From positions 9,667 to 66,340 of the forward strand of contig PLYV01000161.1 in assembly GCA_003151855.1 (NCBI GenBank): DNA of 56,674 nt, written 5' to 3'. Within the stretch, counting starts at the first letter, position 1; every line of letters starts with the position of its first letter. The stretch comes from Limisphaerales bacterium. GTDB taxonomy: Bacteria; Verrucomicrobiota; Verrucomicrobiia; Limisphaerales; UBA11358. Below, one piece after another: positions 2,914-55,010 of the stretch. Both the position numbers and the translations under genes were made by a program. The notes under the pieces were generated by a model, which was given only the letters and a program-made list of their open reading frames with translations, searched no databases and was not told the origin of the DNA.

Positions 2914-2959
2914 TGGCGCCGACCCAGACTTGGTAAACTGCACGCAGTCAGGTTGAGGT

Positions 2960-3805: not shown

Positions 3806-4060
3806 CGGCGGGGGGAAGAACCCAAACTGACATGAATCGGTGTTTTTCCTAGAAAAGGCGCAGATCGGGCGCGCATTCATGTTATTTTTTACCCTGTTTC
3901 GACCGATTCGTGTCATTCGGTCCAAGATGACAAACTTGGTGATCTTTCCATTCGCTGCGAGGCGAGTCTTCCACAGAGCCGACATGGAATGACCGAATGA
4001 ACAACGACTTTCGCTCGCGGAGCGTTCAGATATCGTGGACACCGTGAGGAGGCCGAAAGT

Positions 4061-4465
4061 ATGAAGACGATAGTAGCAAGATCCGAATTGGCCACGCGCG
4101 TGGAACGCGCTCTGAAAGAACTGGCGGCCCAGGTCCAGCGCAGCGTGCCGGCCGTGCGTTGTACCGTCCAGCACGGCGGCAATGACAGTTTTCCCTGGTG
4201 GATCGTGGCCCGTTTCGCCAACGGTGCGGACGAGAGCAAAGTAGTAGACGTCTCAATCGAGTGTCGGGGGACGTCGGAGGATTGGACGATCCGAGCCGAC
4301 CTCGCGCGCGAGAATGGTTGGGTTATTCGAGAATCTTCCGCCCTCTCGTCCAGCGCGCCGGCGAATGGGGCGGAACGACCCGGCGAGCCGGAGGAGGACG
4401 GCGTGAAGCAACTCGAAGTCTTCTTGATCGAACAGGCGGATTGTCTTCGTCAGGAATTGACATGA
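4061..4465 (+). CDS. Conserved-looking hypothetical protein
   Basis: A 134-residue soluble protein with no signal peptide, preceded by a strong ribosome site (GAGGAGG about ten bases before the ATG). The first 90 residues look like a compact alpha/beta domain (SFPWWIVARFANG, VVDVSIECRG, WTIRADLARENGWVIRE). The rest is a low-complexity linker and a short helix ending in LEVFLIEQADCLRQELT. I recognise no family. It is followed by a strong hairpin and then by the convergent PRTase cassette, so it is probably monocistronic. Confidence 0.6.
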   Translation: MKTIVARSELATRVERALKELAAQVQRSVPAVRCTVQHGGNDSFPWWIVARFANGADESKVVDVSIECRGTSEDWTIRADLARENGWVIRESSALSSSAPANGAERPGEPEEDGVKQLEVFLIEQADCLRQELT

Positions 4466-4476
4466 AACGAGGAAAA

Positions 4477-4512
4477 GGGACGCGGATCATCCCCAAGAAT
4501 GATCCGCGTCCC
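4477..4512 (+). terminator. Strong hairpin after the 134-residue gene
   Basis: GGGACGCGGATCAT (4477-4490) pairs perfectly with ATGATCCGCGTCCC (4499-4512) around an eight-base loop, 11 bases after the stop. The left arm (AAAAGGGACGCGGATCAT) resembles AAAAGGGGATGCGGATTAAT at 7471-7490 on the other side of the Dam-ParB-PRTase cassette. Confidence 0.6.
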
Positions 4513-4571
4513 CATTGATTTTCCTCCACCCCGTTTTCCGCCTCTTCTTTTCTATTCTACAGGTGAGACAG

Positions 4572-5411
4572 TTACGCAGGTGGATTTGTCCTTGGAAAAA
4601 GCGGAACCCACTTATCCTTATTGTAGCTGTGCAGAATGGGGATGGTATTGTTCGGGCAATCATGGTTTAGAACAAACAGCAATCCACAATCCCCGTATCC
4701 CTTCGGCTTTTCTGGGAAGTGTTCTGTACAATACCTTAATACAATTTCTTTGTCAGAGGATGTAAAATGACAGCAGTCGTCTGAGAAGAAATTGTCCGAG
4801 CCGATCAAGTTGTAATGGGTCATGAGCTGGAGATCAGTGTTCATGCGAATCTCATCATGTGCTTGGACAGTAGCTGCCACGACCATGAGGTACACCGTGC
4901 CAACACCGCCTGCCAACTCTCGAAATAGTCCATTCCAACTTGCACATGCTTGAGTACCCGTGCCCGCAAAGTCATCGATTAGCACGACAGTGTCATTGCC
5001 GGTTAGTTTCTGTGCGGGAAGTTCATGGGCATAAACGAAGAGCGAGTTGAAATACCTCTCCCTCATACTCATCGCCTGACGGAAGCAAGCCGTCATATGG
5101 TCCCCACTCTCTCCTGGCCGTACGGCGTAGGGCACGAACCGCCACTCCCCAGTTCTACTTGTCTTGTTTCTATGCCAACCGGGCAGAGCTCGCATGAGAC
5201 TTTGAAATGCGAGTTCCATCTCCGCCCGCGTGACAAGCTGGACGGAGTCGAGAAGGCGCGCAGCCACATCCCTATCCTGTTTCTTGAACTGACCGACCCA
5301 AGCATCGATGTCTCCAGGAGTGGGCGGATGCTTGTAGTTCAAGAAGTGATTGTACCACTTCTTTTTTCGGGAGTTGTTGATCTTTGTGTCAACTGGGGCA
5401 GGCTGTTTCAT
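4572..5411 (-). CDS. PRTase-CE family phosphoribosyltransferase-like protein
   Basis: A 279-residue protein of the conflict-associated phosphoribosyltransferase-like family. The N-terminal helical part has W..QF...D...AARLL and LVTRAEMELAFQSL. The central PRPP-loop-like motif VVLIDDFAGTGTQ lies around residues 142-154. The C-terminal segment has the family's GYGDCGLLFVLNHDCPNNT followed by IPILHSY..DKWVPLFPR. It is the last gene of a three-gene operon: its ATG overlaps the stop of the ParB-like gene by four bases (ATGA). Family members are mostly seen in predicted nucleotide-centred conflict and immunity operons; the reaction is unknown. Base composition is clearly less GC-rich than the flanks, suggesting transfer. 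Confidence 0.8.
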   Translation of the reverse strand: MKQPAPVDTKINNSRKKKWYNHFLNYKHPPTPGDIDAWVGQFKKQDRDVAARLLDSVQLVTRAEMELAFQSLMRALPGWHRNKTSRTGEWRFVPYAVRPGESGDHMTACFRQAMSMRERYFNSLFVYAHELPAQKLTGNDTVVLIDDFAGTGTQACASWNGLFRELAGGVGTVYLMVVAATVQAHDEIRMNTDLQLMTHYNLIGSDNFFSDDCCHFTSSDKEIVLRYCTEHFPEKPKGYGDCGLLFVLNHDCPNNTIPILHSYNKDKWVPLFPRTNPPA

Positions 5412-6424
5412 TTTTTTGATCGCCGTCCGAGTTCTTGAAGCTTGGCTTGGATGGTTGCGGCTAGTTTCTCCAGATCTTCCCAGAGTTGCTCCTCAGCGAA
5501 AAACTCATCGATGTCGATATCCTTGATAGCTTGGCGAAGCTTGCCAACGTCTTTCGTCAAGGCCCTGACCTGTGTGGCTACGCCGACCCCTTCAATCTCA
5601 AGATGATCGACTCGGAGGTCTGGTTGTTTGGTGAACTCCTCGAGACGCTTTGATAATTGCCTCAGCTTGCCGGCTTTGTTCGCATTGCTAATGTGTTGCT
5701 TGATGATCCTGAAATCGGTAACAGCCTTCAAGCCTTTGGCTTTCTGCTTCTCTATCATTGCGTCGGTGAACTCGTCGCGGTCGAACCAGTCGAAGTTATT
5801 CACGAGGCGATCGTTCCTGATGACATACATCTCGATGAAAAAGTCTGCCTTCCATCGCTCTTCCGGGTTGGCCGTCAACATCATTTCCTGATACTTGCCG
5901 TCGTAGGACAGTAGCTTCTTACACCTCACGATCACCGCCACGTCCATGCCGGTCAGCTCGGCAAGTTTCTGGTCATTCGACTCTTGCATCTCGTCCATCA
6001 ACACCTGCATCTTGAGGGCGGTTGGCATCAACTCCCAGTCTGCTCTTAACTTGTGGATTTGGAACATCGTGATGATGTTCTGAAATGTCGATGGCTCCGC
6101 TACGATGTTGACGGGCACTTTTTGCAATTCGGCTTTTTGCGCGCAGATCCAGCGTCGCTGGCCGTCGAGGATAACGTACTTACCATTGATCCTCGCCTTC
6201 TCGTACACCGTCAACGGCACGAGAATGCCCACTTTCCTGATCGACTCTTCTAGTGTCTGCATGGGCACATCGTCGAACAGCATGCGCGGGTTGTGCGGAT
6301 TCGGCTCAAGGTCAATAATCTTGACCTCCTTGATGCCGATCAGCTGTACAGCATGTTCCTGCCTGTCGGGCTTTTCGTTCGAGGCCGCTTTCCTCTTCTG
6401 TCCCGATGGCTTTTTCATAGCCAT
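5408..6424 (-). CDS. ParB/Srx-fold protein of the Dam-PRTase cassette
   Basis: A 338-residue protein. I chose the ATG at 6424 (MAMKKPSGQKRK) because GAGGGAG stands just upstream and the methylase stop is four bases away; a longer frame reaches 6466. After a basic tail, residues ~35-110 form a ParB N-terminal (sulfiredoxin-like) domain: LEPNPHNPR, LEESIRKVGILVPLTVYE and VILDGQRRW. The last matches ParB box II, whose GERR motif binds CTP in true ParB. Next comes a helical region with an HTH-like KLAELTGMDVAVIVRCKKLL, then a charged C-terminal coiled region. No ParA partner is present. Coupling to a methylase and a PRTase argues against chromosome partitioning and for a DNA-sensing or nuclease role in a conflict system. 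Confidence 0.75.
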   Translation of the reverse strand: MAMKKPSGQKRKAASNEKPDRQEHAVQLIGIKEVKIIDLEPNPHNPRMLFDDVPMQTLEESIRKVGILVPLTVYEKARINGKYVILDGQRRWICAQKAELQKVPVNIVAEPSTFQNIITMFQIHKLRADWELMPTALKMQVLMDEMQESNDQKLAELTGMDVAVIVRCKKLLSYDGKYQEMMLTANPEERWKADFFIEMYVIRNDRLVNNFDWFDRDEFTDAMIEKQKAKGLKAVTDFRIIKQHISNANKAGKLRQLSKRLEEFTKQPDLRVDHLEIEGVGVATQVRALTKDVGKLRQAIKDIDIDEFFAEEQLWEDLEKLAATIQAKLQELGRRSKK

Positions 6425-6428
6425 ACCG

Positions 6429-7322
6429 TCACTCCCTCTTGGTGCCCCGACGGAATTCCTCGGCAATCGGCTTGTTCGAGATCAGCCATTCGTAGGCATG
6501 TCGGCGACTCCCTGTGAAGCCCGCCACGTGACGTCGTATTGGGAGACGAACTGCATTCCACTTTCGAGCGATTTCCCGTGATTCCTTGCAGTCGGCGTAA
6601 CTTACGAGAAAGTCAGCACCAGTTTGGACGATTCGCGTCAGGCTTGTGGCCATCCGTTCAATGTCAGGCGTATCGAAGAGGGTGGCCCCGTACTCGCGGA
6701 ACACCCGGCGGGATCTCACTGCGTACGGCGGATCCAAGTAGACGAAATCGCCGGACTGCACGTGCTGGAGAGTTCGCTCGAAGTCTCCTGCGATCAGCTT
6801 AGTCCGCTTTAGTAACGATGAACATAGTAGCAGGTCCGCTTTCGAGAAGTACGCACCGGGCTTGGTGCCCATTGGGACGTTAAAGTCCCCGCTCGTATTC
6901 GTTCGGTAGATGCCGTTAAAGCAGTTGCGATTCAGGTACAGGAAGCGGAGCGCGCGCGTTTCGGGATCGAGTTCGTCTTGTTGCTTGCTCCGCCATCGGT
7001 AGTACGTTGACTCATCCCGCTTAATCCGGCACAGGCGCTCATAAAGTCGGACGGGATGATCACGGACGACCCGGTATAGTTCGATCAGGCTGGCGTTCTT
7101 GTCGCCGAGGATTCCCTGATTTGGGGCGATCTCGAAGAACAGGCACGCCGAGCCTGCAAAGGGCTCGACGTACCGCTGGTGTGAATTAGTCCAGAATTGA
7201 ATCAGCCTCGGGAGTTGCTTCCGCTTGCTACCAGCCCAGCGAAGAAATGGCTTCGCCCGCTGATCTGGCCTGCTCTGCGTCGTGCGTCCGAAGTCAGATG
7301 CATGGGAGCGCGAATCGGCCAT
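6429..7322 (-). CDS. DNA adenine methylase (D12 class, Dam-like)
   Basis: A 297-residue N6-adenine methyltransferase of the Dam/DpnM type. KPFLRWAGSKRKQLPRL at residues ~24-40 and YVEPFAGSACLFFE at ~51-64 form the SAM-binding motifs. FLYLNRNCFNGIYR is the usual mid-domain segment, and VYLDPPY (DPPY catalytic motif) is near residue 200. It is the promoter-proximal gene of the three-gene cassette, four bases upstream of the ParB-like start. The role is probably to mark host DNA, as in a modification-linked defence or regulatory system. The target site cannot be read from sequence, though GATC is typical of the class. Confidence 0.88.
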   Translation of the reverse strand: MADSRSHASDFGRTTQSRPDQRAKPFLRWAGSKRKQLPRLIQFWTNSHQRYVEPFAGSACLFFEIAPNQGILGDKNASLIELYRVVRDHPVRLYERLCRIKRDESTYYRWRSKQQDELDPETRALRFLYLNRNCFNGIYRTNTSGDFNVPMGTKPGAYFSKADLLLCSSLLKRTKLIAGDFERTLQHVQSGDFVYLDPPYAVRSRRVFREYGATLFDTPDIERMATSLTRIVQTGADFLVSYADCKESREIARKWNAVRLPIRRHVAGFTGSRRHAYEWLISNKPIAEEFRRGTKRE

Positions 7323-10980: not shown

Positions 10981-12576
10981 TCAATGTTTCCCTTGGTGGT
11001 CGCCGGTTTTCGCCGGCGCGGCAGGGGCGGCCGGCGTCCGTTCCTCGCCGGTAACCGTGATGCGCGCGCCGTCGTTCAACCCGTCGCGTCCGGAGGCAAT
11101 AATTTTGTCCGTGGCATTCAACCCCTCCAACACCTCGACCAATCCCTCAGACCCCGCCGGTCCAAGTTTGACGACGCGCCGCCGTGCCACACCGGCCGCC
11201 TGGTCCGCGAGCCACACCGTCGGTTTCTCACCTGCGTTCTCCACCAGCGACCGCGGCACGAGCAGACGCAACGGAGGCGTCTCATCCTGCGCCGGTCGAG
11301 CCGAGGCAACGGCGAGAAACGTCACCTGAACGAGCATATCGGGCCGTAGTGTGGAGGGCGGCTTGTCGATGGCGACCTTGACTTGCAGTGTGTTTTTCTG
11401 GATGTCGGCCTGCGAGGTGGGGAACAACACTTCGCCGAGCAGCGGTCCGCCCGGCGCCGCCGGTGTCTCGATTTTGACGCGCTGGCCCGGCCGGACGCGC
11501 GGCACGTCCTCCAGGCGAACGTCGGCGCGGACCTGCAAGCGCGCCGGATCATACAGGCTGACAATCGCGCTGCCGTCATGTCCACCGCTCGCCGTACTCA
11601 TGACGCGCGCGCCCGGCCGCGTGAGCAAGCCAAGCACCCGGCCCGCGACGGGCGTTTTGACGGTCATCCGGCGGAGGCGTAGTTGCGCGGTATCGACAGC
11701 CGCTTGCGCTTGCAGCACCCGCGCCTCCGCGGCTTCAACCTGGGCCTCCGTGTCCGCTTTCTGCCGCTTTTCTTCCGTCTTCAGCTCCAACCGCTGACGA
11801 ACGGCGTCGGACTTTTGCTGCAACGCCGCAACCTCCCGCTCCAGGCGAACCATGCGGCTCTTCAATTCCTCGAGGCTCACCGAAAGCAGATCAAGCTCGT
11901 TTTGCACTCGCCTGACGCCCAGTTCCGGCACCAACGTACCGACGGACTTGACGCCTTCCAGCTCCCGCTGCGCCAGCCGATGTTTCGCTTCGGCCGTGCG
12001 CAGTTGAAACGGCAGCACCGTCCGCTCCGTTTGTTTCTGCGCCAGCATGGCCTCGGCTTCGGCCAGCGCCGCCTGCAAGTGCGCCGGTTTCTCCACGTTC
12101 ACTGCCGCGGCCGTTCGTGACGCCAGCGCCGACTTCAACTCGGCCTGACGCAACAGCAAGTCCGCCTGCGCCGCGTTCACGGCCAGCTTGACCTCGGCAT
12201 CGATCAAGCGCGCGACCGTCTCTCCCGCCTGGACCTCCTGGCCTTCGACGACCAGCAATGCTTCAACGACGCCCTCGGCCAGCGCCGGCACGGTAATCGA
12301 CGTCGGCCGTGGTTCGACCCAGCCCGCCGATTGGAAGAGCGGCTCGCCCTCCCGCGAAACTTCGCCGCGCGTCGTCAGCACGGGAACGACCGTCACGGAC
12401 CGCGACGGCAGCAGACTATCGCGCGCCGCCCACGCGATCACGGCGACGAAGCCGAGCAACACACCCGCCGGCAAGACGACGCGCGACAGCCAGCGGCGCG
12501 GACGGCGCGCCGCTGGAGGCGTGGCCGGCCCCTCGCGGCGAACGGCGAGTTGACGCAGATCGACGTTTGGATTCAT
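10981..12576 (-). CDS. HlyD/RND-type periplasmic adaptor subunit
   Basis: A 531-residue membrane-fusion protein. A basic N-terminus is followed by one membrane anchor (residues ~32-50). A biotinyl-lipoyl half ([29 protein letters not shown]), a long alpha-helical hairpin (~125-290, rich in Ala, Glu, Gln, Arg) and the second lipoyl half ([15 protein letters not shown]) come next. The beta-barrel and membrane-proximal domains follow ([23 protein letters not shown]), ending in a Pro/Ala tail. It bridges an inner-membrane permease to the outer envelope in export. Neighbours on both sides are MacB-like permeases and an ATPase, so a MacA-like role is likely. Confidence 0.88.
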
Positions 12577-12585
12577 GGCTTGCCT

Positions 12586-13101
12586 CTACTTTTGGTCAGC
12601 TCGAACATACAGCCCCATCGCCAGGATCGTCAGATTGCCCTTGTCGTCGCGCTTCGCCTTGCCGCGCACGACCACGGTTTGGAGTTCCTTCACACCGAGA
12701 AGCTCGCGCGCCGGCGTCTGCACCGTGTCCCCCTGTGCGTCAACGATGTTCACGGTCGCCATCGAGGCGAGCAGGCGTTTCGGATCGTCGCAGCAGTAGT
12801 CCCAGGGCGTATCGCAATTGTCGCCCTCAATTTCGCTGCAAGGCACGAGCGAGGCATCGATGAGCGAGAAACTCGCCTGACCGCTGCCCCAGGGGTCTTT
12901 GCGGCCGCCGATGCGTCCGACGATGACGACGTCGTCGCCGTCCTTTGTTTTCTTCCGGGTATCGAGGACGCTCTGCGCCTCGGCCGGCTCTTCCTTCAGC
13001 AGGTACTTCGCGCCGTCTCCGGAGAAACCACTCCCCGGTTTGTTGTCCGAGCAACCCAGGCACGCCGCGAGGAGCAGCGCTGGCACGGTGATCCACTTCA
13101 T
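12586..13101 (-). CDS. Putative lipoprotein of the exporter cluster
   Basis: A 171-residue protein with a short signal peptide and a lipobox (LLAACLGCSDN; either Cys could be lipidated). The mature part has a KEEPAEAQSVLD start, a strand-rich core (DVVIVGRIGGRKDPW), two acidic Cys pairs (EGDNCDTPWDYCCDD), and a second strand set (ATVNIVDAQG, LQTVVVRGKAKRDDKGNLTI). The pattern suggests a small OB-like barrel, but I name no family. It lies between the adaptor gene (9 bases away) and the second permease (19 bases), so it is very probably an envelope component of the same exporter. Confidence 0.7.
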   Translation of the reverse strand: MKWITVPALLLAACLGCSDNKPGSGFSGDGAKYLLKEEPAEAQSVLDTRKKTKDGDDVVIVGRIGGRKDPWGSGQASFSLIDASLVPCSEIEGDNCDTPWDYCCDDPKRLLASMATVNIVDAQGDTVQTPARELLGVKELQTVVVRGKAKRDDKGNLTILAMGLYVRADQK

Positions 13102-45708: not shown

Positions 45709-46518
45709 TTATCGGCGTGGGGATTTAATCCTTGGCAAATGGGCCAATGGCCCGCCGTATTCATGTGAACCGGAGTTGCTTTGGGAAGCACGACTGTTTG
45801 AGTTGGGAGCAGTGCTGTTGGCTGGTGTGATTATTTGACGGAGTGCCGGATCCAGATTTCCAAAAATCTGTTCGTGTGACTGCGGTAGTTGTGACTGTGG
45901 CGGTTCTGAAGCTTGTCCCATGCTGACGGGTATTGCGCCGGTAGCCGCGCGTGCTCTTGGGACGGTGCGCTGCCTGACGGCCTCATTTAATTGTTCACCT
46001 TCAACCCGAGTATCGAGGACATCCATGAGGTGATGCCACTTCTTCCATGAAGAAACCGCTCTCTTGAAAAACAGACTCAAGGCAGACAATTGAAACCAGA
46101 TTGCCAGCGCGTCATCGTGGGAAACCAAAAGTAGTCCGACGACCAACAGGAATCCCGGCTCAAGAATCAAATCAACCACCATCGGCTTCGCACAAAAGCG
46201 ATGCCAGAACGGCCACGGAGCTCCGCTAGAATAACTGTGAACGGATGAGTTCTGCCGGCGAAGCATCGAAACGATGTGAAAACAAACCAACGCAAAGTAA
46301 CAGCCCAGATAGAAATTAAGGAATGGTGATTTGATCTGGCCAAAACATCCAACCACGGTCGCGTAGATGAAAAAAATCAGAAAGCTGACTACTATGTCAT
46401 TCATATAGCGGATGCCGAAGGTGTGACGACAAAACACCTCCGCGCTTACCGCCAGATAACGGTAGAAGACTTTAGCGCTGGCTAAAGCCCACTTTGATAT
46501 GGTTTTTATTTGTGGCAT
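45709..46518 (-). CDS. Element-encoded membrane protein
   Basis: A 269-residue protein. I chose the ATG at 46518 (MPQIKTISKWALASAKVFYR), which has GGAAGGA upstream and lies inside the end of the coupling-protein gene (47-base overlap). It has about four membrane segments (VVSFLIFFIYATVVGCFG, LNFYLGCYFALVCFHIVSML, the LEPGFLLVVGLLLV region and the following LAIWFQLSALSLFF). A cytoplasmic C-terminal part is rich in Gln, Ser, Pro and Asn. The overlap suggests partnership with the TraG/VirD4-like protein, perhaps supplying the membrane anchor that the latter lacks. Confidence 0.65.
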   Translation of the reverse strand: MPQIKTISKWALASAKVFYRYLAVSAEVFCRHTFGIRYMNDIVVSFLIFFIYATVVGCFGQIKSPFLNFYLGCYFALVCFHIVSMLRRQNSSVHSYSSGAPWPFWHRFCAKPMVVDLILEPGFLLVVGLLLVSHDDALAIWFQLSALSLFFKRAVSSWKKWHHLMDVLDTRVEGEQLNEAVRQRTVPRARAATGAIPVSMGQASEPPQSQLPQSHEQIFGNLDPALRQIITPANSTAPNSNSRASQSNSGSHEYGGPLAHLPRIKSPRR

Positions 46519-47929
46519 GCCAAATCCTTCCGCCTTGGAACGCGATTGCTTCGACGCAGTAACCATGTTCCGGCCCGCCTTTGCGCAGGCTGGTAAACTC
46601 TCCCGGCAACACCTCGGAATCGAGTGAGTCGCTGGCTCCATAATTCCGCGAAACCGTCTGACGACCGGGACTGTCCGAAGTGGATGCACTGGCGGAAGCA
46701 CGCATTTGCCAGCTCTTGGAAAAGAGATCGGAACTCCAGTTGTTTGTCAGCGTGTCTCCGTTGGCGTGAAATAATTTCGTCTGGAGATTACCCATCACGC
46801 TGTGGGTTTCAGACTGGCCGATGTGGGCATAATACGCCCCGATGTTTTGACTTAGATAAATGGTCGCGATCCGGGAACTGCGGGCGGTTGACTGAAATTC
46901 AGCGTCACGCGGCGAAACAAAAAACTGGGCTTCGTCGGCCCACAGAAAAGCAACGCGGCCATGCTTACGGACATCCCGGCGTTCGCTGGCCCGCTGCCAG
47001 ACAAACTTCATCAACATTTGGGCGAGTTGCCCCACCTCGGCGAATTCCTTGACCGGCAAATCGAGCACCAAGATTGCGCCCTCATGCGTCACCTCGGGCA
47101 CAATATTTGTGGTCGTGCAAAACAGTTCACGGAGCGCCCCACGCAAAAACAAATCCAGCATACTGGTCAGGTTGGTGACGATGATGCTGCGCGTTTTTGA
47201 TGACAGCGCGGGAAATTCCCGGAGCCAATATTTTACCGCAAGGGCAAAGTCGTTGGCCTGCCGATCCGTTTTTGGTTTGGCTTCACCTTCCTTAACGCAA
47301 CGCCAGCAAAGCGAAGATTCCTGCCACGCCGGATCATTGACTTCTTCGGGCGTGGTGGGCGCTGACACCAGCAGATCGTAAATCTCCTGCAACATCAGCC
47401 GTCCCCGGGCGATAATCATCAACTCAAAACAATTCCGCAGAAGTTGCTTGGTCGTGCGTTCCCAAAAATCGTGATTGTTGCCGCCCCGACCGCGTTCCGC
47501 GACTTCCAGCGTGCTCGAAAACAGACGCACCAAGTTTTCAGTCAGGCCGGCTCCGGCACCTGGCCGTGACAACTCGTAGCTAAGAAAATTAAATCTCCAT
47601 GGTTCGGTGGGCGAAAAAATGATAAGTGATTTCGACCGGTTTGTTTCCTGACAATAGCGCTTCCATAAAGACACCTCGTCAGTTTTGGCACAGAGCACCA
47701 ACCCGCCACAACCTGCCCGAAGCAATGATTTGGCGATAGCCGCCCCACTACCGCTGGTTTTTCCTGAACCCGTGGCACCAAAGACGGCGGTGCCTTCACA
47801 GGCATCGCGGACAGTCCATTGATCACGCGGCCCAAATTGCAAAAGGGGAACGTCTAGCTGGTCAACCGGTTTGGGGGCGGGTGTTGCAGCCGGCGGTAAT
47901 CCTGCGAGCATTTGGAAAAAGTTTTTCAT
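46472..47929 (-). CDS. Type IV coupling protein, TraG/VirD4-like
   Basis: A 485-residue P-loop ATPase of the FtsK/HerA class. Walker A is GATGSGKTSGSG (residues ~51-62), Walker B VAFLWADEAQFF near 325. Coupling-protein features follow: LSQNIGAYYAHIGQSETHSV, LQTKLFHANGDTLTNNW. Unlike VirD4 it lacks N-terminal membrane segments, so the overlapping downstream membrane protein may anchor it. It passes relaxase-bound DNA to a conjugation channel. No channel genes are present, so the element should be mobilizable and borrow a helper's secretion system. ATGA overlap with the relaxase gene. Confidence 0.85.
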   Translation of the reverse strand: MKNFFQMLAGLPPAATPAPKPVDQLDVPLLQFGPRDQWTVRDACEGTAVFGATGSGKTSGSGAAIAKSLLRAGCGGLVLCAKTDEVSLWKRYCQETNRSKSLIIFSPTEPWRFNFLSYELSRPGAGAGLTENLVRLFSSTLEVAERGRGGNNHDFWERTTKQLLRNCFELMIIARGRLMLQEIYDLLVSAPTTPEEVNDPAWQESSLCWRCVKEGEAKPKTDRQANDFALAVKYWLREFPALSSKTRSIIVTNLTSMLDLFLRGALRELFCTTTNIVPEVTHEGAILVLDLPVKEFAEVGQLAQMLMKFVWQRASERRDVRKHGRVAFLWADEAQFFVSPRDAEFQSTARSSRIATIYLSQNIGAYYAHIGQSETHSVMGNLQTKLFHANGDTLTNNWSSDLFSKSWQMRASASASTSDSPGRQTVSRNYGASDSLDSEVLPGEFTSLRKGGPEHGYCVEAIAFQGGRIWHATNKNHIKVGFSQR

Positions 47930-49089
47930 CGGTCGTTAAGGGTCATATCCATTTCAATTTCCAGACCGCGCACGCGGGTCGGTTTTGTTTTCTCAGCCCC
48001 ATTCTGTTGGCGGGCTGGAATGCCATATTTTTTCAATAACGGATTAATTTCCACTGGAGACGAAGCCGGTAGAACAGATTTCGCTGTATTCGGCAGCGCG
48101 GGAACTGCCGTTGTCATGCGTTCCAACGAACTCACTTTTTGTTCAAGATTGATTGCAAGTGTTCGATACGCCCGTTCAAACCTTGCATGCGAAGATTCAA
48201 GACTTCCACATGCTTGACGCCATCGTTCAGTTGCCTGCTCAAGTTCGCCAGCGTAACGGCAAACTGCCGGTCGCGCTCCTGATATTGGGATTCGAGCCGG
48301 TTGAGCGAATTCAGGAGATGACGTTCTAGCTCGGTCATAAATTGGAGAAAAGTTTTGTGATTCAGGAACGGGTGTGGGGTAGCGTTCTTGATGATACGCC
48401 GCCCGGCGTTCGACCAACTTTTGCAACTGCGCTTCCAGCAACCTGGCCCGTTCCGGGTTCGGCGTTCCTTTGGCTGCCCGGAGATTGATAATTTTACTGG
48501 CATCCTGCTTGGCTGCTTGAATCTTTGCCCGATGGCTGGGTTCGCGTTCTTTGCGTGCCCGCGCCGGATCGGACGGGTCGGCCAAACCATACTCCGCGTT
48601 AATTTTCGACCGGAGCGTGTCGAACAATTCGCGGGTGGATTTCCGGGGCGGAGCGATGTTGAGACTTTTGCCAGTCACCAAATCCAAGCGCGGGGTCAGG
48701 AAATGCAACTCGTGCCGGTGCGCTTTGGTATGCTGGTGCCGGACCCAAAGAATTTCATACCGGTCGGAATTCAGGCCGGCGAACGCGGCCTGCTCAAATT
48801 CGGTGATGATTTTTTCTTCCATCGCCGGAGTGATGATTTCGTTCGGGCTGAAACTCAAAACGCCGGAGGTGTATTTGTGTTTGAATTTGACGGAGTCAAT
48901 CAGTTCCTTAATCCGGTCAGGGTCACCCCGCACGACCACCGGAAACGGCTCCCGGCGGACACCCTTTTTGCCCTTACCGCCTGTCAGGTAGCCGACCGGA
49001 GCGTTGCTGACCTGAACCGTCTCGGCGGTGAGATAATCCACCGGACGGGCGGCCTTGCCAGTTCCGTGTTTTGAAAATCCGATCAACAT
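47926..49089 (-). CDS. ColE1 MbeA-type relaxase
   Basis: A 387-residue mobilization nuclease. It begins MLIGFSKHGTGKAARPVDYL like MbeA, and continues DPDRIKELIDSVKFKHKYTS, GVLSFSPNEIITPAMEEKII, then EILWVRHQHTKAHRHELHF and LTPRLDLVTGKSLNI, the metal/active region. ColE1 relaxases have an HEN motif here; the third residue is His (ELHF for ELNF), so the triad would be H-E-H. The C-terminal half is an Arg/Ala/Pro-rich coiled segment. It overlaps the MobC-like gene by seven bases upstream and the coupling-protein gene by four downstream. A second gene is nested in its 3' part. Confidence 0.85.
   Translation of the reverse strand: MLIGFSKHGTGKAARPVDYLTAETVQVSNAPVGYLTGGKGKKGVRREPFPVVVRGDPDRIKELIDSVKFKHKYTSGVLSFSPNEIITPAMEEKIITEFEQAAFAGLNSDRYEILWVRHQHTKAHRHELHFLTPRLDLVTGKSLNIAPPRKSTRELFDTLRSKINAEYGLADPSDPARARKEREPSHRAKIQAAKQDASKIINLRAAKGTPNPERARLLEAQLQKLVERRAAYHQERYPTPVPESQNFSPIYDRARTSSPEFAQPARIPISGARPAVCRYAGELEQATERWRQACGSLESSHARFERAYRTLAINLEQKVSSLERMTTAVPALPNTAKSVLPASSPVEINPLLKKYGIPARQQNGAEKTKPTRVRGLEIEMDMTLNDR
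48132..48338 (-). CDS. Nested MbeD/MobD-like mobilization protein
   Basis: A 68-residue frame lies completely inside the relaxase gene, in another frame on the same strand. It starts MTELERHLLNSLNRLESQYQ and continues RDRQFAVTLANLSRQLNDGV, a helical coiled-coil pattern with clear resemblance to MbeD/MobD (MTELE..LL.AL..L...Y). In ColE1-type plasmids mbeD (and mbeB) are nested inside mbeA in exactly this way. Function there: mobilization accessory and entry exclusion. No good ribosome site is visible upstream (CTCCAATTT), so expression is uncertain. Confidence 0.6.
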   Translation of the reverse strand: MTELERHLLNSLNRLESQYQERDRQFAVTLANLSRQLNDGVKHVEVLNLRMQGLNGRIEHLQSILNKK

Positions 49090-49394
49090 GGAATTTTGGT
49101 TTTGCTGAGCCGGTGAATGGCCCAGTTAAGCTGCCGATCGATGGTGATGAGCCAAGCCAGAATCTCGACCGCCCGGCCGGCTGGAAAATGCTTCGTCTCA
49201 CGGGCGATAAAACTTAAATTCCGGCTCAACCGGGCAAGCTCGCGCAACGCCTCCCATCGCATCTCCTTGTCACCGTGCTTGAGCAGATGACGACGAACCA
49301 AAGCGGAGACGCCGCCGACGGCCTTACCCATGCGGGTAAGGGCCGCATGTTCGGCATCATTGACTCGGATTTTGACCACCCGTTTGCGACCCAT
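49083..49394 (-). CDS. MobC/MbeC-like relaxosome accessory protein
   Basis: A 103-residue basic protein. I chose the ATG at 49394 (MGRKRVVKIRVNDAEHAALT); the open frame to 49505 runs through the candidate oriT. The pattern KIRVNDAEHAALTRMGKAVG followed by GVSALVRRHLL is a ribbon-helix-helix as in MbeC. A helical C-terminal part (LRELARLSRNLSFIARETKH, LAWLITIDRQLNWAIHRL) probably binds the relaxase. It overlaps the relaxase start by seven bases, the ColE1 order mbeC-mbeA. No strong ribosome site. Confidence 0.75.
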   Translation of the reverse strand: MGRKRVVKIRVNDAEHAALTRMGKAVGGVSALVRRHLLKHGDKEMRWEALRELARLSRNLSFIARETKHFPAGRAVEILAWLITIDRQLNWAIHRLSKTKIPC

Positions 49395-49411
49395 TTTGAA
49401 TGGTTTGACCA

Positions 49412-49456
49412 CAAGGCGCACACACACCCCGCTGTGGCCACGGCGGGGTAGCCTTG
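49412..49456. other. Candidate origin of transfer
   Basis: Just upstream of the MobC-like gene, CAAGGC (49412-49417) and GCCTTG (49451-49456) enclose ACCCCGCTGTGG / CCACGGCGGGGT, a near-perfect inverted repeat with one mismatch. It occupies the place where ColE1-type elements hold oriT. The nick site cannot be read from sequence, and the element might use another site. Confidence 0.45.
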
Positions 49457-49520
49457 TTTGGCCAAAAATATGTGACTTTTCTAACGCTTGTTTTGGGGTG
49501 GTCATATCCGGGTTTTTGTT

Positions 49521-50528
49521 TCAGGAATTGATGATGCGCGTGTCTGCAAAGGCACCGATGCGCTGGGTCAAATTCCCGGTGCCGCCGCAGTCCGGACAGG
49601 GCCGGGAATAGCCGGTGTTGGGGTGCTCTGGAATCTGGCGACGCCAGATGGTTTCGCCGAAGAAGATTTGGTCGGAATTGGCGGCTGAAAACGCTTGGCT
49701 AAAATTGTTCAGGCCAAGCAATTTTTCAGCGTCAGGGTGACACCGGATTTGAACCAAATTCCGGTCGCCAATCCGGGCAAGCAGGTCACCCCAACGCGGC
49801 TGTTCCGTTCCGTGATGTAGGATGGCCATTTCGATGTCCGTGCACAGCGCATTTATCTTGCCCGATGACGATATGGGGCTACCGGCCGAGCCGACCGGAT
49901 TTTTGAACCCATGATTCAAATATGCTTCGTAGCGACTGCTGAGGATGCAGCGATGACAGGCTCGGACGGTCACCGGATGTGTGAACGTAATCTCGCTGGC
50001 GAGCCCTTCCGCATAGTGCTGGCAACAGATGCTCGGAATGCCAAAATGCAGGGCCAGTGAATTGACCCTGGCCTGACAAAAAAAGTCGTCGGTTGCACCG
50101 ACCAGAACCGTTTGGCTGGCTCCCGGCGCCAGTGCGGATGTTGCGGAGTCAACGAACGGATCGAAGGCGAGGCGCTTGATGTCGTCGTCCGTCAAATCGT
50201 GGAACGATCCATAGATGGCCTGGACAGCGACCGCCGGATTAATGGCACGCAGGCGCTCGGCCATCACCACCACTTTGGGTCGGCCGATGTCCGGCACGAG
50301 GTAGCCCTGTGTGGCTACATTCGAGCGCTCGACGACATCCTTGTCGACCAATGTGAATTGACCGACACCGGAGCGGGCAGAATTTTCCAGTGCGCCGGTC
50401 GCGCTACCGACACCGATTTGAACCCTCCGAGACTTGGCGAGGATCTCAAGATTGTTGACGCTGGCGACCCGGGCGAAGATTTCGGTGTCGATTTTGAACG
50501 GAGCATTTTCGGGGAAAATATTTTTCAT
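49521..50528 (-). CDS. ThiF/E1-like adenylating enzyme
   Basis: A 335-residue protein starting at MKNIFPENAPFKIDTEIFAR (ATG at 50528, overlapping the JAB stop by four bases); the open frame extends 73 codons upstream. Residues ~30-180 are the ThiF/E1 Rossmann domain: QIGVGSATGALENSARSGVG, QFTLVDKDVVERSNVATQGY, DIGRPKVVVMAERLRAINP and a GATDDFF segment. Two CxxC pairs (CHRC near 210, CPDC near 310) probably bind zinc. It would adenylate a C-terminal carboxylate of a ubiquitin-like or peptide partner. Together with the JAMM protein and two small partners it suggests a modification/removal module. Confidence 0.82.
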   Translation of the reverse strand: MKNIFPENAPFKIDTEIFARVASVNNLEILAKSRRVQIGVGSATGALENSARSGVGQFTLVDKDVVERSNVATQGYLVPDIGRPKVVVMAERLRAINPAVAVQAIYGSFHDLTDDDIKRLAFDPFVDSATSALAPGASQTVLVGATDDFFCQARVNSLALHFGIPSICCQHYAEGLASEITFTHPVTVRACHRCILSSRYEAYLNHGFKNPVGSAGSPISSSGKINALCTDIEMAILHHGTEQPRWGDLLARIGDRNLVQIRCHPDAEKLLGLNNFSQAFSAANSDQIFFGETIWRRQIPEHPNTGYSRPCPDCGGTGNLTQRIGAFADTRIINS

Positions 50529-51043
50529 GATATTAATTGGCGAGTGGCGGTGACTGTGATGTTTATTTCGGGAATGATTTTTTTCATTTTTCCGGCATTC
50601 AAGGGAACGCGCCAGATGGCAACCTCGCCGCCGGTCGGGGTGGCGACAAAAACCCGTATCCGAAACGGTGAGCCGGTGGCGGAGGAATTGACGATGGGGA
50701 TGATTAGAAACGGCAGTTCTGGATTCGCGGCGAATATTTTGCGGCAATAATATTTGTCACCACCGCTCGGATAATGGAGTCCGGCTGGATGGCTGTGAAC
50801 AAATCCCATCATGTCCATTCCCTCGGCATTAAGTTTGACGAGCAGCCGATTGAGCGTGACGGTGTCGGGGGAATAGCCAACCGACGAACATTTGGCCCGC
50901 GTATCGAAATGAAAAAAGGTGATGACTCCAGTTTTGCGGCTACCGGCCAGCAAACCGCCTGATTCCGGTGGCAGGGTGCCGATCGTTTTGCGAATGGCGT
51001 TGAAAACCGCAATGGAAAAAATTGGTATCTTTGGTGCCTTCAT
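50525..51043 (-). CDS. JAB/JAMM metallopeptidase
   Basis: A 172-residue protein, ATG at 51043 (MKAPKIPIFSIAVFNAIRKT). It has the complete JAMM signature: ESGGLLAG with the catalytic Glu, GFVHSHPAGLHYPSGGD fitting HxHx7Sx2D, and flanking strands (ITFFHFDTRA, FRIRVFVATP). JAMM enzymes cleave isopeptide bonds or process ubiquitin-like C-termini. ATGA overlap with the ThiF-like gene and an 11-base gap after the upstream small gene suggest strict co-expression. It could be a deconjugase or a maturase. Confidence 0.85.
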   Translation of the reverse strand: MKAPKIPIFSIAVFNAIRKTIGTLPPESGGLLAGSRKTGVITFFHFDTRAKCSSVGYSPDTVTLNRLLVKLNAEGMDMMGFVHSHPAGLHYPSGGDKYYCRKIFAANPELPFLIIPIVNSSATGSPFRIRVFVATPTGGEVAIWRVPLNAGKMKKIIPEINITVTATRQLIS

Positions 51044-51054
51044 AAATTTGATTT

Positions 51055-51345
51055 TTAATTTCCGGGAAAGCCCTGGCCGGTGATGATGTATTGCTCCGTA
51101 AAATCCGCCCACAGGCCTGCGACGTTTTTGGCGACGGTTATATTTGGCATCAGCCCGGTCCAACAGACGAGACGATCATCGCCTTCACGAATCCGATGTG
51201 TCGTGTGCGGGTCGTCCGGGCGACCGCCGTAATCTGGCTGGTCGAGGATGAAAATAACGTAAGTCGCTTCCTGTCCTTTCATCCGTTGTTCAAAACCAAA
51301 TGTAAACTTGGTTCCCAATTTGGTGATGTATTGGTCGGTTGTCAT
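51055..51345 (-). CDS. Small protein of the ThiF-JAB operon, paralogue 1
   Basis: A 96-residue protein, ATG at 51345 (MTTDQYITKLGTKFTFGFEQ). The central block ILDQPDYGGRPDDPHTTHRI and REGDDRLVCWTG, then ADFTEQYIITGQGF, is closely shared with the adjacent 98-residue protein. The layout, strands with an HTTHR turn, a C/N-W pair and a long helix, recalls a minimal ubiquitin-conjugating (E2) fold, but I do not claim it. A single Cys sits at the place where the paralogue has Asn. No C-terminal Gly-Gly. Confidence 0.6.
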   Translation of the reverse strand: MTTDQYITKLGTKFTFGFEQRMKGQEATYVIFILDQPDYGGRPDDPHTTHRIREGDDRLVCWTGLMPNITVAKNVAGLWADFTEQYIITGQGFPGN

Positions 51346-51358
51346 AATCCCGGGTGGA

Positions 51359-51655
51359 TCAATTTTGTTTTTCAGAAAAAGGCTGCCCAGTCGCGATGTA
51401 GCGTTCGGTGAGATCCGACCAGCAAGCCGCAATGATTTTGGCATCATCTAAAGTCGGCGCTGGTCCCGGCCAATTAATCAGCCAATTGTCACCCTCACGA
51501 ATCCGATGTGTCGTGTGCGATTCATCCGGGCGACCGGCGTAATCTGGCTGGTCGAGAATCAGAACCGCAAAGCGTTTTTCCTGGTTCACCTCACGCTCTT
51601 CAAAACCGAATTTGAATGGCATGCCTGCTTTTGTGGTATAAATGTCTATTTTCAT
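51359..51655 (-). CDS. Small protein of the ThiF-JAB operon, paralogue 2
   Basis: A 98-residue protein, ATG at 51655 (MKIDIYTTKAGMPFKFGFEE). About half of the residues match the 96-residue paralogue downstream (13-base gap), including ILDQPDYAGRPDESHTTHRI, REGDNWLINWPGPAP and SDLTERYIATGQPF. The paralogue's Cys is Asn here. The similarity extends to DNA (for example a shared run reading HTTHRIREGD in both), so this is a fairly recent tandem duplication. The family appears conserved in mobile DNA but unnamed to me. Confidence 0.6.
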   Translation of the reverse strand: MKIDIYTTKAGMPFKFGFEEREVNQEKRFAVLILDQPDYAGRPDESHTTHRIREGDNWLINWPGPAPTLDDAKIIAACWSDLTERYIATGQPFSEKQN

Positions 51656-52082
51656 ATTCTTGTTATTTTGTTTTTGGAAGGGGCGTCGGAGCAATTTTTT
51701 GAATCGCCCCGACACCTTGTCACCGCGCTGTTAGGTCAACACCAGGTCCCTGTGGGGACAGTGTCGCCATGCAGTATTTGTTTCATACAGCATCCTTTTG
51801 TTTGCCGGCAGGCAGGCCAGCGATTACGTTTCCACCCGGCACGCGAGTGCCGGCAACAGTGGGTTTGGCCAAATTGTTACGATTTTTAATTTTCACTTTT
51901 CCAGTTCGTTGTTGTTGTCACTTTTTGATTCGCCAACTTCATTTAACGTTTTGATCATCTCAAAAAGGCAGTTCGCGTTGCAAAAGAGCGCATTCGGATC
52001 ATTCGGAAGCCCATTCGGAAGAACATGACAAACGCGGGTTTTTGCTGTAAACCAATGCGAATATCCAACGCTTGAAACCAAA
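51656..52082 (-). other. Leader region with a chain of overlapping mini-frames
   Basis: No normal gene. On the minus strand, three small frames are joined by start/stop overlaps: ATG 51958 (21 residues, MIKTLNEVGESKSD), GTG 51896 (37 residues, TVAGTRVPGGNVIAGLPAGK), and ATG 51786 (16 residues, MKQILHGDTVPTGTWC, after a good AAAGGA ribosome site). They may be leader peptides, peptide substrates for the ThiF-like enzyme, or chance. The promoters of this operon and of the divergent NB-ARC gene must also lie here. Confidence 0.4.
51991..52019. promoter_or_regulatory. Three CATTCGGA direct repeats
   Basis: CATTCGGA occurs at 51991, 52000 and 52012 in the intergenic zone between the two divergent cargo units. 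The close spacing (9 and 12 bases) suggests a binding site for a regulator of the NB-ARC gene or the divergent operon. No protein is known to bind it. Confidence 0.35.
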
Positions 52083-55010
52083 ATGAACCAGCAAAATGCA
52101 GAGTCGACTGCTAGCGCAAAGCCACCGTCTGGCATTTCTGAAGCCAAACAAAAAGGCAGGTATTTGCGATTAACATTCAGGGGTGATTTGCTGGACCGGG
52201 TTGAATTTCGATTTGCCGAAAAATGGGTGACGCCATATTTGCAACGAGGGGATGAGCGATTCCCGCTGAACTGGCCTGATGTGGAGGTGGCTTTTAGCCT
52301 ATGCTTTCTTGATTATATTATTTGGGTGCGAAGCAAGAAATCGGGAGTGTTTCTATTCGGCGTTGAAGCAGCGGATGTTGGTTTCGCCAAACAATTGAGC
52401 AGCGCGATCTACCAGACAACCCACAAGATACACCAAGTGTTTTTTGGGGAAAACCTGAAAGGCAAAAATGAAGAAATGTTCGTCACCCACTTAATATTCC
52501 CGAAAGTTCCTGGAATTAGTAAATCTGGGAAGGGTAAGTCAACATTGGCCTTAGCTGTCAGCAATATTTTTTTACCACCAGATTGCATTGAGATATTTTG
52601 GGATTCTGAGCGCACAGGAAATTCAAAGAGAATTGACGACCTTGGGACAATTCAAGAATTGGCAAAACAGATTCGCATCTCACAAACCCCACCAATACTA
52701 TATCATGACGCCCACAACTTTTCGGGATATGCTGTAAAGGAGTCACACAATGATTTGACCAAATCAGGCGATCAAAGGACTGCGGCTCATTCAGCTTCCT
52801 GTCCCTTGCTAGATACCGCCAAAGGGCAAATTGAGCCACCGGTAGGTGATTTTGTGGGCCGGATAACCCAACAAGGTGAATTAATATCCAAAATAATCAG
52901 CGGTGCAAAGACGGAAGTCGGCATTGCGATGATTCATGGGATGCCTGGGGTTGGAAAGTCGGAAATGGCATTGATGATCGCAAAGAAATTGAAGGGAGAG
53001 TTTCCTGATGCTCAACTGTCAATCAAACTGAACGGAGATGATGATAAATCGAGCAGAACAGCCGATGCCTTAGCTTTAGCAATTAGATCCATGAAGGGAC
53101 TGGCCTTGGAACTGCCTCCTGACCTAGATTTTCTTAGGCATATTTATCTAAGTTCGCTCAATGAGACAAAATCTCTCGTTCTAGTCGATAACGCCCGAGA
53201 CACTTCTGATGTGGGATGGTTTGTTCCGCCGGATGGCTGCGCAATGATAGTCACATCGAGAGGTAAGATTCCATTGCCTCGAAATTCGAGTGTGTCTATC
53301 CATCTTGATGAACTTGAGCCGGATAAAGCCAAAGAATTGCTTGTAAGTATTTGCTCGCGAATCACTTTGCCAATCGCCGAACAGATTTGCAGGTATTGCG
53401 GTTGCCTGCCCCTGGCAATCCGTGCCGCCGGAAATTATTTAGACACAACCCCTGGAGTGATGCCATCGGAATACCTTGAATTGTTGAAAGATGAGCATCA
53501 TCGCCTTGAATTGATTGGCAACCAAGGCGTGCCAATAGGAATCGAGGCTTCCTTCAATCTTAGCTACCATCGACTGCCCGAGAAAACTGCACAAGTATTC
53601 AGATTTTTGTCCCTGTTCCACACAAGATTTGATTCGGCAGCGGAGGCAACAGTTTGCGACGATCAAAAAAACGAACATCTGCACTACTTGCATCGTCAGG
53701 CATTGGTCAATTATGAGAGCAGTTCCCGGCGATATTATCTTCACGATTTAATGAGATTGTTCGCCAGCAACTACTTTGCTCGCGAACAACAGAGCGAGGT
53801 AGCCGCCGCAAGATTTGCCGAGCATTATTTGGCGCTTTATGAAAGGGCTGAAGCGCTTTTTGATAGCGATCTCAATAATTTGAAAGCCGGAGCTAAACTA
53901 TTTGTTCAAGAGCAAACCGCAATACTGGCTGGCTGGCGATGGTGTGTTACCAAGCGAAACACCAATCCTACCGCTGCCCGCTTGTGTTGCCGTTTTGGCG
54001 AAGCCGGCGCTTACTTGTCTGGCAATTTTATCCTTCCGGCAGACCGGGTAGAATTATATGCGGCTACGCTCGATGCGGCGAGGATTTTGCGAGACACAAA
54101 GAGTGAAGTTATTGCTTTAAGACGTCTCGCCCGCGCTCACTATGACAGTGGAAAACACTTGCAGGAATCTTTGGAATTGCTTCAACAGTCTTTCAAACTA
54201 GCTGTAACAATCGGGGATGTTCAGCAGCAGGCAGTTGCACTTTCGCATCTCGGGCGCGTCGAAATGCGTGAACGTAAAATAAAAGATGCGCTGCGAACGC
54301 ATATCCATGCGGTCCATCTCGCAAGAATTTCAAACGACCTTGATTCACAAATGGTATCGCTTGGCCACCTGGGGTCGACATACACTGACCTAGGCGAATC
54401 GCCACAGGCAATTTGCTGTTACAATGCTTCGCTAAAATTGGCGCGGCGTTTAAGAAAATCACGAAACGAGGCGATCGCGCTAGGTGGTCTAGGTAGAGCT
54501 TACGACAAAACCGACAAACCGAAGGCACTAAAATATTTCGAGGATTGTCTGAAGCTCGCTAAAGAGATTGATGATCTTAAAACGGTTAATACCGTGACAC
54601 TTAATCTCGGCAGATATTTTCTCCAAACTGATCCCAAACGAGCATTAAAATATTTCCAACGCTCGCTGGAATTGAATCGAGAGCAAGGCAATCGCAAAAG
54701 GGAGGGCGGCGCATTGTATGATTCGGGTTTGGCACTGAAGGCCATGGGCGATAAAGATGATGCGATAAGGGCATTCTCCGAATCGCTTAGAATTGCGCGT
54801 GATGCTTTAGACTACATTGGCGAGGGAAAAGCGTTGGAGCAATTGTGTTACATTTACGGTAAATCTCCGGCTACAACGTATCGCGCGTTGATACTCGGCG
54901 AAGCGGCTGTCAGGATCTATCAAAAGAAAGCGCAAACATGGGTTTATAGGTTGCAGCCAAAAATTAAAAACTGGCGGCAGACTTTGAAACGCCCAAGCAA
55001 GCGACTATAA
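52083..55010 (+). CDS. NB-ARC/TPR STAND protein with an unknown N-terminal domain
   Basis: A 975-residue signalling ATPase. Residues ~1-250 form an unknown domain (YLRLTFRGDLLDRVEFRFAE, VRSKKSGVFLFGVEAADVGF). NB-ARC follows at ~265-500: Walker A MIHGMPGVGKSE (~281-292), Walker B KSLVLVDNARD, sensor CAMIVTSRGKIPL, and the CGCLPLAIRAAG loop. A winged-helix part (NLSYHRLPEKTAQVFRFLSL) precedes a TPR array from ~690 to 960 (ALSHLGRVEMRERKIKDALR, ALKYFEDCLKLAKEIDDLKT, KALKYFQRSLELNREQGNRK). Such NLR-like proteins sense phage or nucleic acids and trigger the N-terminal effector. The gene is AT-richer than its neighbours and runs opposite to them, which supports cargo acquisition. Confidence 0.85.
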   Translation: MNQQNAESTASAKPPSGISEAKQKGRYLRLTFRGDLLDRVEFRFAEKWVTPYLQRGDERFPLNWPDVEVAFSLCFLDYIIWVRSKKSGVFLFGVEAADVGFAKQLSSAIYQTTHKIHQVFFGENLKGKNEEMFVTHLIFPKVPGISKSGKGKSTLALAVSNIFLPPDCIEIFWDSERTGNSKRIDDLGTIQELAKQIRISQTPPILYHDAHNFSGYAVKESHNDLTKSGDQRTAAHSASCPLLDTAKGQIEPPVGDFVGRITQQGELISKIISGAKTEVGIAMIHGMPGVGKSEMALMIAKKLKGEFPDAQLSIKLNGDDDKSSRTADALALAIRSMKGLALELPPDLDFLRHIYLSSLNETKSLVLVDNARDTSDVGWFVPPDGCAMIVTSRGKIPLPRNSSVSIHLDELEPDKAKELLVSICSRITLPIAEQICRYCGCLPLAIRAAGNYLDTTPGVMPSEYLELLKDEHHRLELIGNQGVPIGIEASFNLSYHRLPEKTAQVFRFLSLFHTRFDSAAEATVCDDQKNEHLHYLHRQALVNYESSSRRYYLHDLMRLFASNYFAREQQSEVAAARFAEHYLALYERAEALFDSDLNNLKAGAKLFVQEQTAILAGWRWCVTKRNTNPTAARLCCRFGEAGAYLSGNFILPADRVELYAATLDAARILRDTKSEVIALRRLARAHYDSGKHLQESLELLQQSFKLAVTIGDVQQQAVALSHLGRVEMRERKIKDALRTHIHAVHLARISNDLDSQMVSLGHLGSTYTDLGESPQAICCYNASLKLARRLRKSRNEAIALGGLGRAYDKTDKPKALKYFEDCLKLAKEIDDLKTVNTVTLNLGRYFLQTDPKRALKYFQRSLELNREQGNRKREGGALYDSGLALKAMGDKDDAIRAFSESLRIARDALDYIGEGKALEQLCYIYGKSPATTYRALILGEAAVRIYQKKAQTWVYRLQPKIKNWRQTLKRPSKRL

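Follow-up and report, generated by a model that had tools for sequence, protein, structure and literature searches.

What does an E1-like adenylating enzyme act on when it is encoded beside an E2-like protein and a JAMM protease, and no ubiquitin-like protein is evident? The question is raised by a compact operon in the window, the whole stretch of 56,674 nucleotides analysed here, which is part of contig C288 of a Limisphaerales bacterium (source genome 3.8 Mb, 69.67% complete). What is new is a short repeat-peptide open reading frame (ORF) beside the E1, E2-like and JAMM genes. We put at about even odds that these genes form a bacterial E1-E2-JAMM system whose partner is a short tandem-unit peptide and not a beta-grasp protein, with conjugation chemistry as the proposed activity. 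The observed basis comprises the gene set, the JAMM and ThiF motifs, a UBC-like structural model, a conserved Cys, and the co-occurrence of the peptide and the selection acting on it. The features concerned are the following.

51736-51786, minus strand: short ORF MKQILHGDTVPTGTWC, 16 residues, candidate single repeat-peptide unit
51359-51655, minus strand: small2 (P0004), 98 residues, predicted UBC-fold paralogue with Asn61 instead of Cys, presumed inactive
51055-51345, minus strand: small1 (P0003), 96 residues, predicted E2-like UBC-fold protein with conserved Cys61
50525-51043, minus strand: JAMM (Prok-JAB) metalloprotease (P0002), 172 residues, Pfam PF14464
49521-50528, minus strand: ThiF/E1-like adenylating enzyme (P0001), 335 residues, Pfam PF00899, four invariant Cys arranged CxxC...CxxC

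Transcription runs from small2 through small1 and JAMM to the ThiF/E1-like gene, with 13 bases between the small genes, 11 bases between small1 and JAMM, and a 4-base overlap of JAMM and E1. The window E1 reaches 68.6 bits with Pfam ThiF (cut-off 28.1) and the JAMM protein 38.6 bits with Prok-JAB (cut-off 25). An ungapped alignment of 93 residues gives 56% identity between the small proteins and sets C61 of P0003 opposite N61 of P0004. The first-pass annotation had described four genes coupled by overlaps or gaps below 15 bases, with a full E1-like nucleotide site, a perfect JAMM motif and two tandem small paralogues having Cys and Asn at one place. Each of these statements holds, the nucleotide site being further borne out by adenylation residues kept in all 23 aligned E1s and the motif H-x-H-x7-S-x2-D being intact in the window protein. 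That four-gene set ended before a further likely gene, the ORF at 51736-51786 on the same minus strand.

Related loci and the short repeat peptide

When 387 genomes from the phylum of the window were searched with P0003, nine had matches: the window's own genome, five counted as real because E1 and JAMM genes adjoin, and three (G349, G284 and G191; L019-L021) dismissed as chance, with neither gene adjoining. An E1 profile search of genome contigs, made with an alignment (A2) of the window E1 and the five same-phylum E1s, yielded 24 loci (L022-L045), the five already known among them. Their hosts are Acidobacteria, Kiritimatiellae/Pontiellaceae, Verrucomicrobia, Lentisphaerae, Victivallales, Planctomycetes/Phycisphaerae, beta- and deltaproteobacteria, Ruminococcus/Clostridiales and Babeliaceae. 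As to co-occurrence, the small protein was found by profile in 22 of the 24 and a JAMM with intact motif in 23. Both loci without the small protein are truncated: L022 begins within its JAMM-E1 gene, and L034 begins in an inserted element, its near-identical sister L035 having the small protein. L034, bounded by the inserted element and the contig end, is also the locus with only a JAMM remnant.

Three layouts can be distinguished. In type I, JAMM and E1 are fused, as in many relatives, and a gene for an AAA+ ATPase (Pfam AAA_2) that has an N-terminal domain of its own usually follows. In type II (L039-L045) JAMM and E1 are separate, and at several loci a CxxC protein and a HerA-like ATPase follow. 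Type III (L069-L072, two genomes from a Planctomycetota search) runs E2-like gene, peptide, JAMM, E1 and, at some distance, an ATPase whose similarity to HerA is sub-threshold. The window has separate JAMM and E1 genes and no AAA+ gene. Among plasmids, phages and viral contigs, no close relative of the small protein appeared beyond one non-significant plasmid match; the E1 alignment found nothing in viral contigs, nor did the L028 JAMM-E1 protein in plasmids.

A short repeat ORF, first seen by reading the DNA upstream of the small genes, lies near the operon in nearly every locus. It encodes one to five tandem units of about 10-13 residues with the approximate consensus G-[GDE]-[DE]-x-[ILV]-[PE]-x-G-[TG]-F-[HR], as in MKTMKLEF(GGESVPSGTFR)x5 of L029, MKKFGAEVKVVFR(GEEELPPGGFR)x3-S of L031 and the single unit MIKRR-GDDELPPGTFR of L035. 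The peptide ORF is present in 21 of the 22 assessable E1 loci, the shorter L035 ORF included (L022 and L034 are not assessable and stand outside the count). The position matrix was built from 19 units of 16 loci, and L024, L027, L036, L038 and L040 carry the peptide though they were outside the set used to build it. Its specificity is high, 50 of the 52 scores above 12 among 389,841 frame positions falling in peptide ORFs. The ORF precedes JAMM-E1 in L029, lies between the small copies in L024 and stands before the first small gene elsewhere. A ribosome-binding-site-like sequence lies ahead of most of these ORFs; for ORFs with more than one candidate ATG, the start preceded by the best sequence of this kind was taken, which introduces a mild bias.

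An independent set was assembled with the small protein, and not the peptide, as query, over 392 + 297 + 297 + 297 genomes. Eleven genomes matched, four of them being the search centres, and ten regions were taken from the remaining seven. The peptide was found in all nine regions with E1 in reach (L067-L075), in eight by the matrix and in L071 by reading (MKIVLFGIEELDGGTLHSDN); the tenth, L076, lies at a contig start and shows neither E1 nor peptide within the stretch fetched.

The strongest evidence on the peptide comes from comparison of successive units (36 pairs from 18 loci), which differ at 252 bases, distributed over codon positions 1, 2 and 3 as 32, 19 and 201. Read in the peptide frame, the codon changes are 167 synonymous versus 30 non-synonymous, as against 6/192 and 8/186 in the shifted frames of the same strand and 7/190, 4/194 and 144/50 on the opposite strand, where the last frame shares the wobble positions of the peptide frame. 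Silent and replacement changes number 31 and 0 in L029, and 23 and 0 in L033. The units compared scored above 15 with the motif, a choice that favours similar peptides but cannot create silent changes. Because successive units differ almost only at synonymous sites, the repeat peptide is evidently translated and under strong selection, its units having been kept alike over long times as they are in polyubiquitin genes. No account of such a peptide with these genes was found in the open-access literature, which is weak evidence of absence.

Some off-target motif matches were taken as chance. They are 'GEPDDPPGTFR' (score 22.2), about 7 kb from a Multi_ubiq gene in L081, and matches at window position 26853, on the minus strand of L036, L068 and L071, and in L082.

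The candidate of the window itself, MKQILHGDTVPTGTWC, lies 80 bases upstream of small2, in the place that strong peptide ORFs occupy in related loci. The ORF comprises 17 codons including the stop, which follows directly behind the unit, and has AAGGA about 8 bases before its ATG. The unit scores 10.6, third best among the 113,348 positions of the window; the chance of an equal score in the roughly 400 coding-strand positions upstream of small2 is about 1 in 100, the stop codon uncounted. Its form has parallels, since the L074 peptide also ends in FC and L035 also has a single unit. From its sequence and place, MKQILHGDTVPTGTWC is likely, but not proven, to be the single repeat-peptide unit of the window.

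The E2-like, E1-like and JAMM proteins and the AAA+ partner

Neither small protein of the window matches Pfam, NCBIfam or PADLOC. An AlphaFold2 model of P0003, computed from an alignment (A4) of 29 sequences from the window and the loci of the E1 contig search, has a mean predicted local distance difference test (pLDDT) of 94.7 and a predicted template-modelling score of 0.85. It shows strands at residues 2-7, 13-23, 26-35, 51-54 and 57-60 and a long helix at 69-89. In the model Cys61 comes right after strand 57-60 and before the helix, which is the placement expected of an E2 active site. Structural comparison by VIA-align placed first the CdnG-E2 structure 8hsb_B, of the cyclic-oligonucleotide-based antiphage signalling system (CBASS), with Z 7.2 over 90 of 96 residues at 2.5 A, a value in the range below 8 in which the program warns of a merely common arrangement. 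A second CdnG-E2 structure, 8yjy_B, is listed at Z 6.8, and CdnG-E2 is followed by UFC1, UBE2W, the ubiquitin E2 variant (UEV) domains of TSG101 and Vps23, UBE2V1 and UbcH7. The first 25 of the 42 matches listed are all UBC folds (E2 or UEV), with Z from 7.2 to 3.6, and the first match of another fold is Mfd at Z 3.5.

At all 33 loci that carry the small protein (22 from the E1 contig search, the ten later regions and the window) at least one copy has the Cys. With the split L076 protein entered once, 36 of 42 domains have it and six lack it (L024 and L026 have two such domains apiece, L029 and the window a single one), and these Cys-less extra copies would fit pairs of active and inactive proteins. 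In L026, the sister of the mobilizable element in the window, a 400-residue protein (11403-12602, plus strand) carries two Cys-less small domains behind a hydrophobic stretch. The first-pass idea, which saw in the two small proteins an E2-like protein paired with its inactive variant, is thus supported by a model that aligns best with UBC/E2 folds, and not with an unrelated one, and by a Cys conserved throughout; the model, in particular, supports P0003 as an E2-like UBC-fold protein. The other possibility raised there casts the small proteins as the substrate; we do not favour it, the separately encoded repeat peptide being a better candidate for that role.

The adenylation site of the E1-like enzyme is strictly kept: R7, G28, D49, N57, Q61, K72 and D134 (trimmed-alignment numbering) are invariant in all 23 aligned sequences, from which L035 and L038 were left out as near-copies of L034 and L037. 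Two CxxC pairs, that is four Cys, are also universal. The commonest further Cys (15 of 23) lies earlier in the domain, and the stretch behind the first CxxC pair, a place to look for a catalytic Cys, mostly reads [TS]-S-x-G. A second ThiF-type protein is encoded near the L028 operon (11322-12902, plus strand), with a weak E1-profile match of 48 bits.

The motif E...HxHx7Sx2D is present in the window JAMM protein and at every locus with a whole JAMM; it is absent from the JAMM remnants fused to E1 in L034 and L035. At these two loci (L035 3157-5747, L034 1-1498) an inserted element, by eye with an istA/istB-like pair, splits JAMM from E1. Tandem pairs of JAMM genes precede E1 in L039 (8842-9969) and L041 (8848-9969).

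The AAA+ ATPase is encoded in L022-L025, L028-L033 and L036-L038, and L026 retains its N-domain only. This N-domain (L025 2236-3633 and relatives, A6) carries a stretch [DQE]-x-[ML]-P-P-G-[ST] that resembles the peptide unit, and the resemblance may mean that one surface binds both. It gave no Pfam family at a convincing E-value, and a model of it (pLDDT 87.8) resembles no known structure clearly (Z at most 4.9, Foldseek E no better than 0.08). Homology of the N-domain to UBC or to the small protein was discarded, with an hhalign probability of 1.7%.

What the peptide may do

With a rough probability of 0.4, we read these operons as encoding ubiquitin-like tagging with a modifier of about 11 residues that is coded head-to-tail and served by a miniature E2 with its inactive twin, a JAMM protease, an E1 and, often, a Clp-like unfoldase. 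The JAMM protease would trim the poly-peptide, perhaps at the invariant Gly, and the E1-like enzyme would adenylate the C-terminus of the freed peptide. The acyl group would then move to the Cys of the UBC-fold protein as a thioester, the Cys-less paralogue would take part without catalysis, much as UEVs do with E2s, and the peptide would finally be placed on a target by conjugation. In most relatives with fused JAMM-E1, a dedicated Clp-like AAA+ ATPase might then handle the tagged protein. Because the window has no AAA+ gene and a single, weaker peptide unit, its relatives offer the best view of the whole pathway.

Several observations weigh against tagging. Instead of Gly, the units have F-H, F-R or a few residues more at their end, and at type II loci between one and three of them are embedded in a protein of 65-99 residues; C-terminal activation therefore needs an unproven cut. 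The 23 aligned E1s have no universal Cys in the crossover loop, as located by alignment, and for this reason activation may end at the adenylate, or the E2-like Cys may accept the acyl group directly. Just 13 of the 24 loci have the AAA+ ATPase, and neither mobilizable element (window, L026) does. L026, the nearest element, is also the only one of the 22 assessable loci without a peptide match, and the window peptide is one unit, weak on its own sequence. As for the fold, Foldseek found no significant match to the P0003 model (best E 2.3), and none of the 29 small-protein members scanned matched a Pfam E2 family; profile searches of PDB sequences with the small-protein family found no E2, nor did a search with the type II E2-like protein of L044. 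With Foldseek non-significant and Z below 8, the UBC assignment rests on the consistency of the structural list and on the operon context.

The main rival, in our judgement rather unlikely, makes the peptide a regulator: it would bind the E1, the E2-like or the AAA+ protein as an adaptor, as a sensor or by mimicking a substrate, while the protein that is truly modified lies elsewhere in the genome. Such a role would suit units that lack a terminal Gly and a motif whose position varies, as well as the similar stretch in the AAA+ N-domain, as if the two had a common binding partner, and in CBASS a whole protein is the conjugated substrate. Yet tandem units that are identical at the protein level resemble a processed or multivalent product, and no other conserved gene for a candidate substrate adjoins the type I operons.

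The gaps noted in the window can be read as decay, which we regard as improbable: a mobilizable cargo would have lost its AAA+ gene and be losing its peptide, with only part of the chemistry still at work. The single weak unit agrees with this, as does L026, with its residual AAA+ N-domain and with two Cys-less small domains besides the Cys copy. An AAA+ partner with the N-domain was not found in the window or in the rest of the 70%-complete genome, where the matches cover the ATPase part only, from profile position 123 onwards. Nevertheless, the JAMM motif, the E1 site and Cys61 of the window are intact and its genes tightly packed, and relatives, too, often lack the AAA+ gene (11 of 24 loci, some of them ended by a contig edge).

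Least probable is a ribosomally synthesised and post-translationally modified peptide (RiPP), in which the E1-like enzyme would modify the peptide C-terminus as MccB does and JAMM would release the cores of a signalling or inhibitory peptide; E1-like enzymes do act on short ribosomal peptides in known RiPPs, multi-core precursors are known, and the ThiF domain of the window E1 is weakly similar to MccB and PaaA among many E1s, but one would not expect such a pathway to include a Clp-like ATPase or a Cys-bearing UBC-fold protein that is often paired with an inactive twin, and no transporter gene is constant in the neighbour gene lists.

Links to phage defence are known for bacterial E1/E2/JAMM systems, whose substrate classes so far are beta-grasp proteins and, later, whole cGAS enzymes. 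A conserved and selected tandem peptide of about 11 residues beside E1, UBC-fold protein and JAMM points to a further class, and the operon also points to a minimal E2 of about 90 residues. If tagging with the peptide is confirmed, E1/E2 chemistry on a small, freestanding modifier would not depend on the ubiquitin fold. The idea is directly testable because the candidate substrate is small, easily synthesised and naturally repeated, and because Cys and Cys-less copies stand side by side.

Mobile setting and comparison with known systems

Downstream of the operon in the window lie the mobilization genes that place it on a mobilizable element, the setting already recognised in the first-pass annotation:

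49083-49505, minus strand: MobC/NikA-like mobilization protein (sub-threshold NikA-like match, 17.8 bits against 27)
47926-49089, minus strand: MobA/VirD2-type relaxase (PF03432, 31.1 bits against 24.6)
46472-47929, minus strand: TraG/VirD4-like (TraG/TraD-like) coupling protein (PF12696, 30.0 bits against 22)

The sister element L026, from a Verrucomicrobia metagenome-assembled genome, has related cargo adjoining the same MobC, relaxase and coupling protein genes. Window and L026 share 42% identity over 330 residues in the E1, 47% over 180 in the relaxase and 49% over 340 in the coupling protein, and the MobC counterpart of L026 scores 41.1 bits as NikA-like. Adjoining the operon, a divergent gene (52083-55010, plus strand) encodes a 975-residue STAND-type NB-ARC ATPase with TPR repeats. 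Farther away, a protein that by eye is DNA adenine methylase-like (6429-7322, minus strand) stands beside a ParB-like one (5408-6466). In L043 a 1427-residue neighbour (2460-6740, minus strand) matches the MkoA defence model with E 1.7e-105. The seven neighbour proteins tried gave only scattered matches to defence systems (e.g. HEAT-ARM beside L027), and for this reason no defence role is claimed.

The first-pass view that the operon fits none of PRTRC, Bil and CBASS and has no obvious ubiquitin-like protein agrees with the features tested. The window proteins that were scanned contain no Pfam ubiquitin-like domain, and no additional gene is constant among the type I loci, the check covering those scanned proteins and the type I gene lists and not every ORF of every locus. 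The PRTRC ThiF model TIGR03736 gives 17.5 bits, against a cut-off of 144.75. In microcin C, MccB is an E1-like enzyme that modifies a short ribosomal peptide and is encoded beside a very short peptide gene; operons of the window type differ by their JAMM protease, their UBC-fold Cys protein and, in relatives, the AAA+ partner. BilABCD, as described in a review (PMC11354881), shares E1, E2 and JAMM as separate genes; BilA, in contrast, is a protein with a double ubiquitin-like domain, of which none was seen here, and the E1s of the window family lack a universal catalytic Cys.

Type II CBASS likewise combines E1, E2 and JAMM without a beta-grasp modifier and provides, in CdnG-E2, the best structural match of the small protein. 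According to Jenson et al. (2023, PMC10097602), its enzyme Cap2 acts on the C-terminal Gly/Ala of bacterial cGAS, an E1/E2 substrate without the beta-grasp fold. The operon differs in that neither Pfam nor PADLOC shows a CD-NTase among its four proteins and the NB-ARC protein encoded next to them, and in that its E1 is not fused to E2; the PADLOC E1-E2 and JAB models match it weakly and in part.

The nearest described operons are the polyUbl (multi-ubiquitin) sets, given in row 6e of Iyer et al. (2006, PMC1779556) as having JAB-E1 fusions, RWD/UBC proteins and tandem beta-grasp repeats. Judged by that entry, the likeness to the window family lies in the JAB-E1 fusion, the UBC/RWD-like protein and the tandem repeats of a presumed modifier, and some sets reside on conjugative elements, which recalls the mobile setting here; the difference is that the repeats are beta-grasp domains and that the UBC protein is described as inactive. 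Of the four Multi_ubiq loci compared, three have E1s that score 24-34 bits with the family profile, against 227-522 for members, L081 gives nothing, and none of the four has a match to the small protein. Hence, by the features tested, the operon is not a member of the polyUbl or CBASS systems, although by analogy it may work like them.

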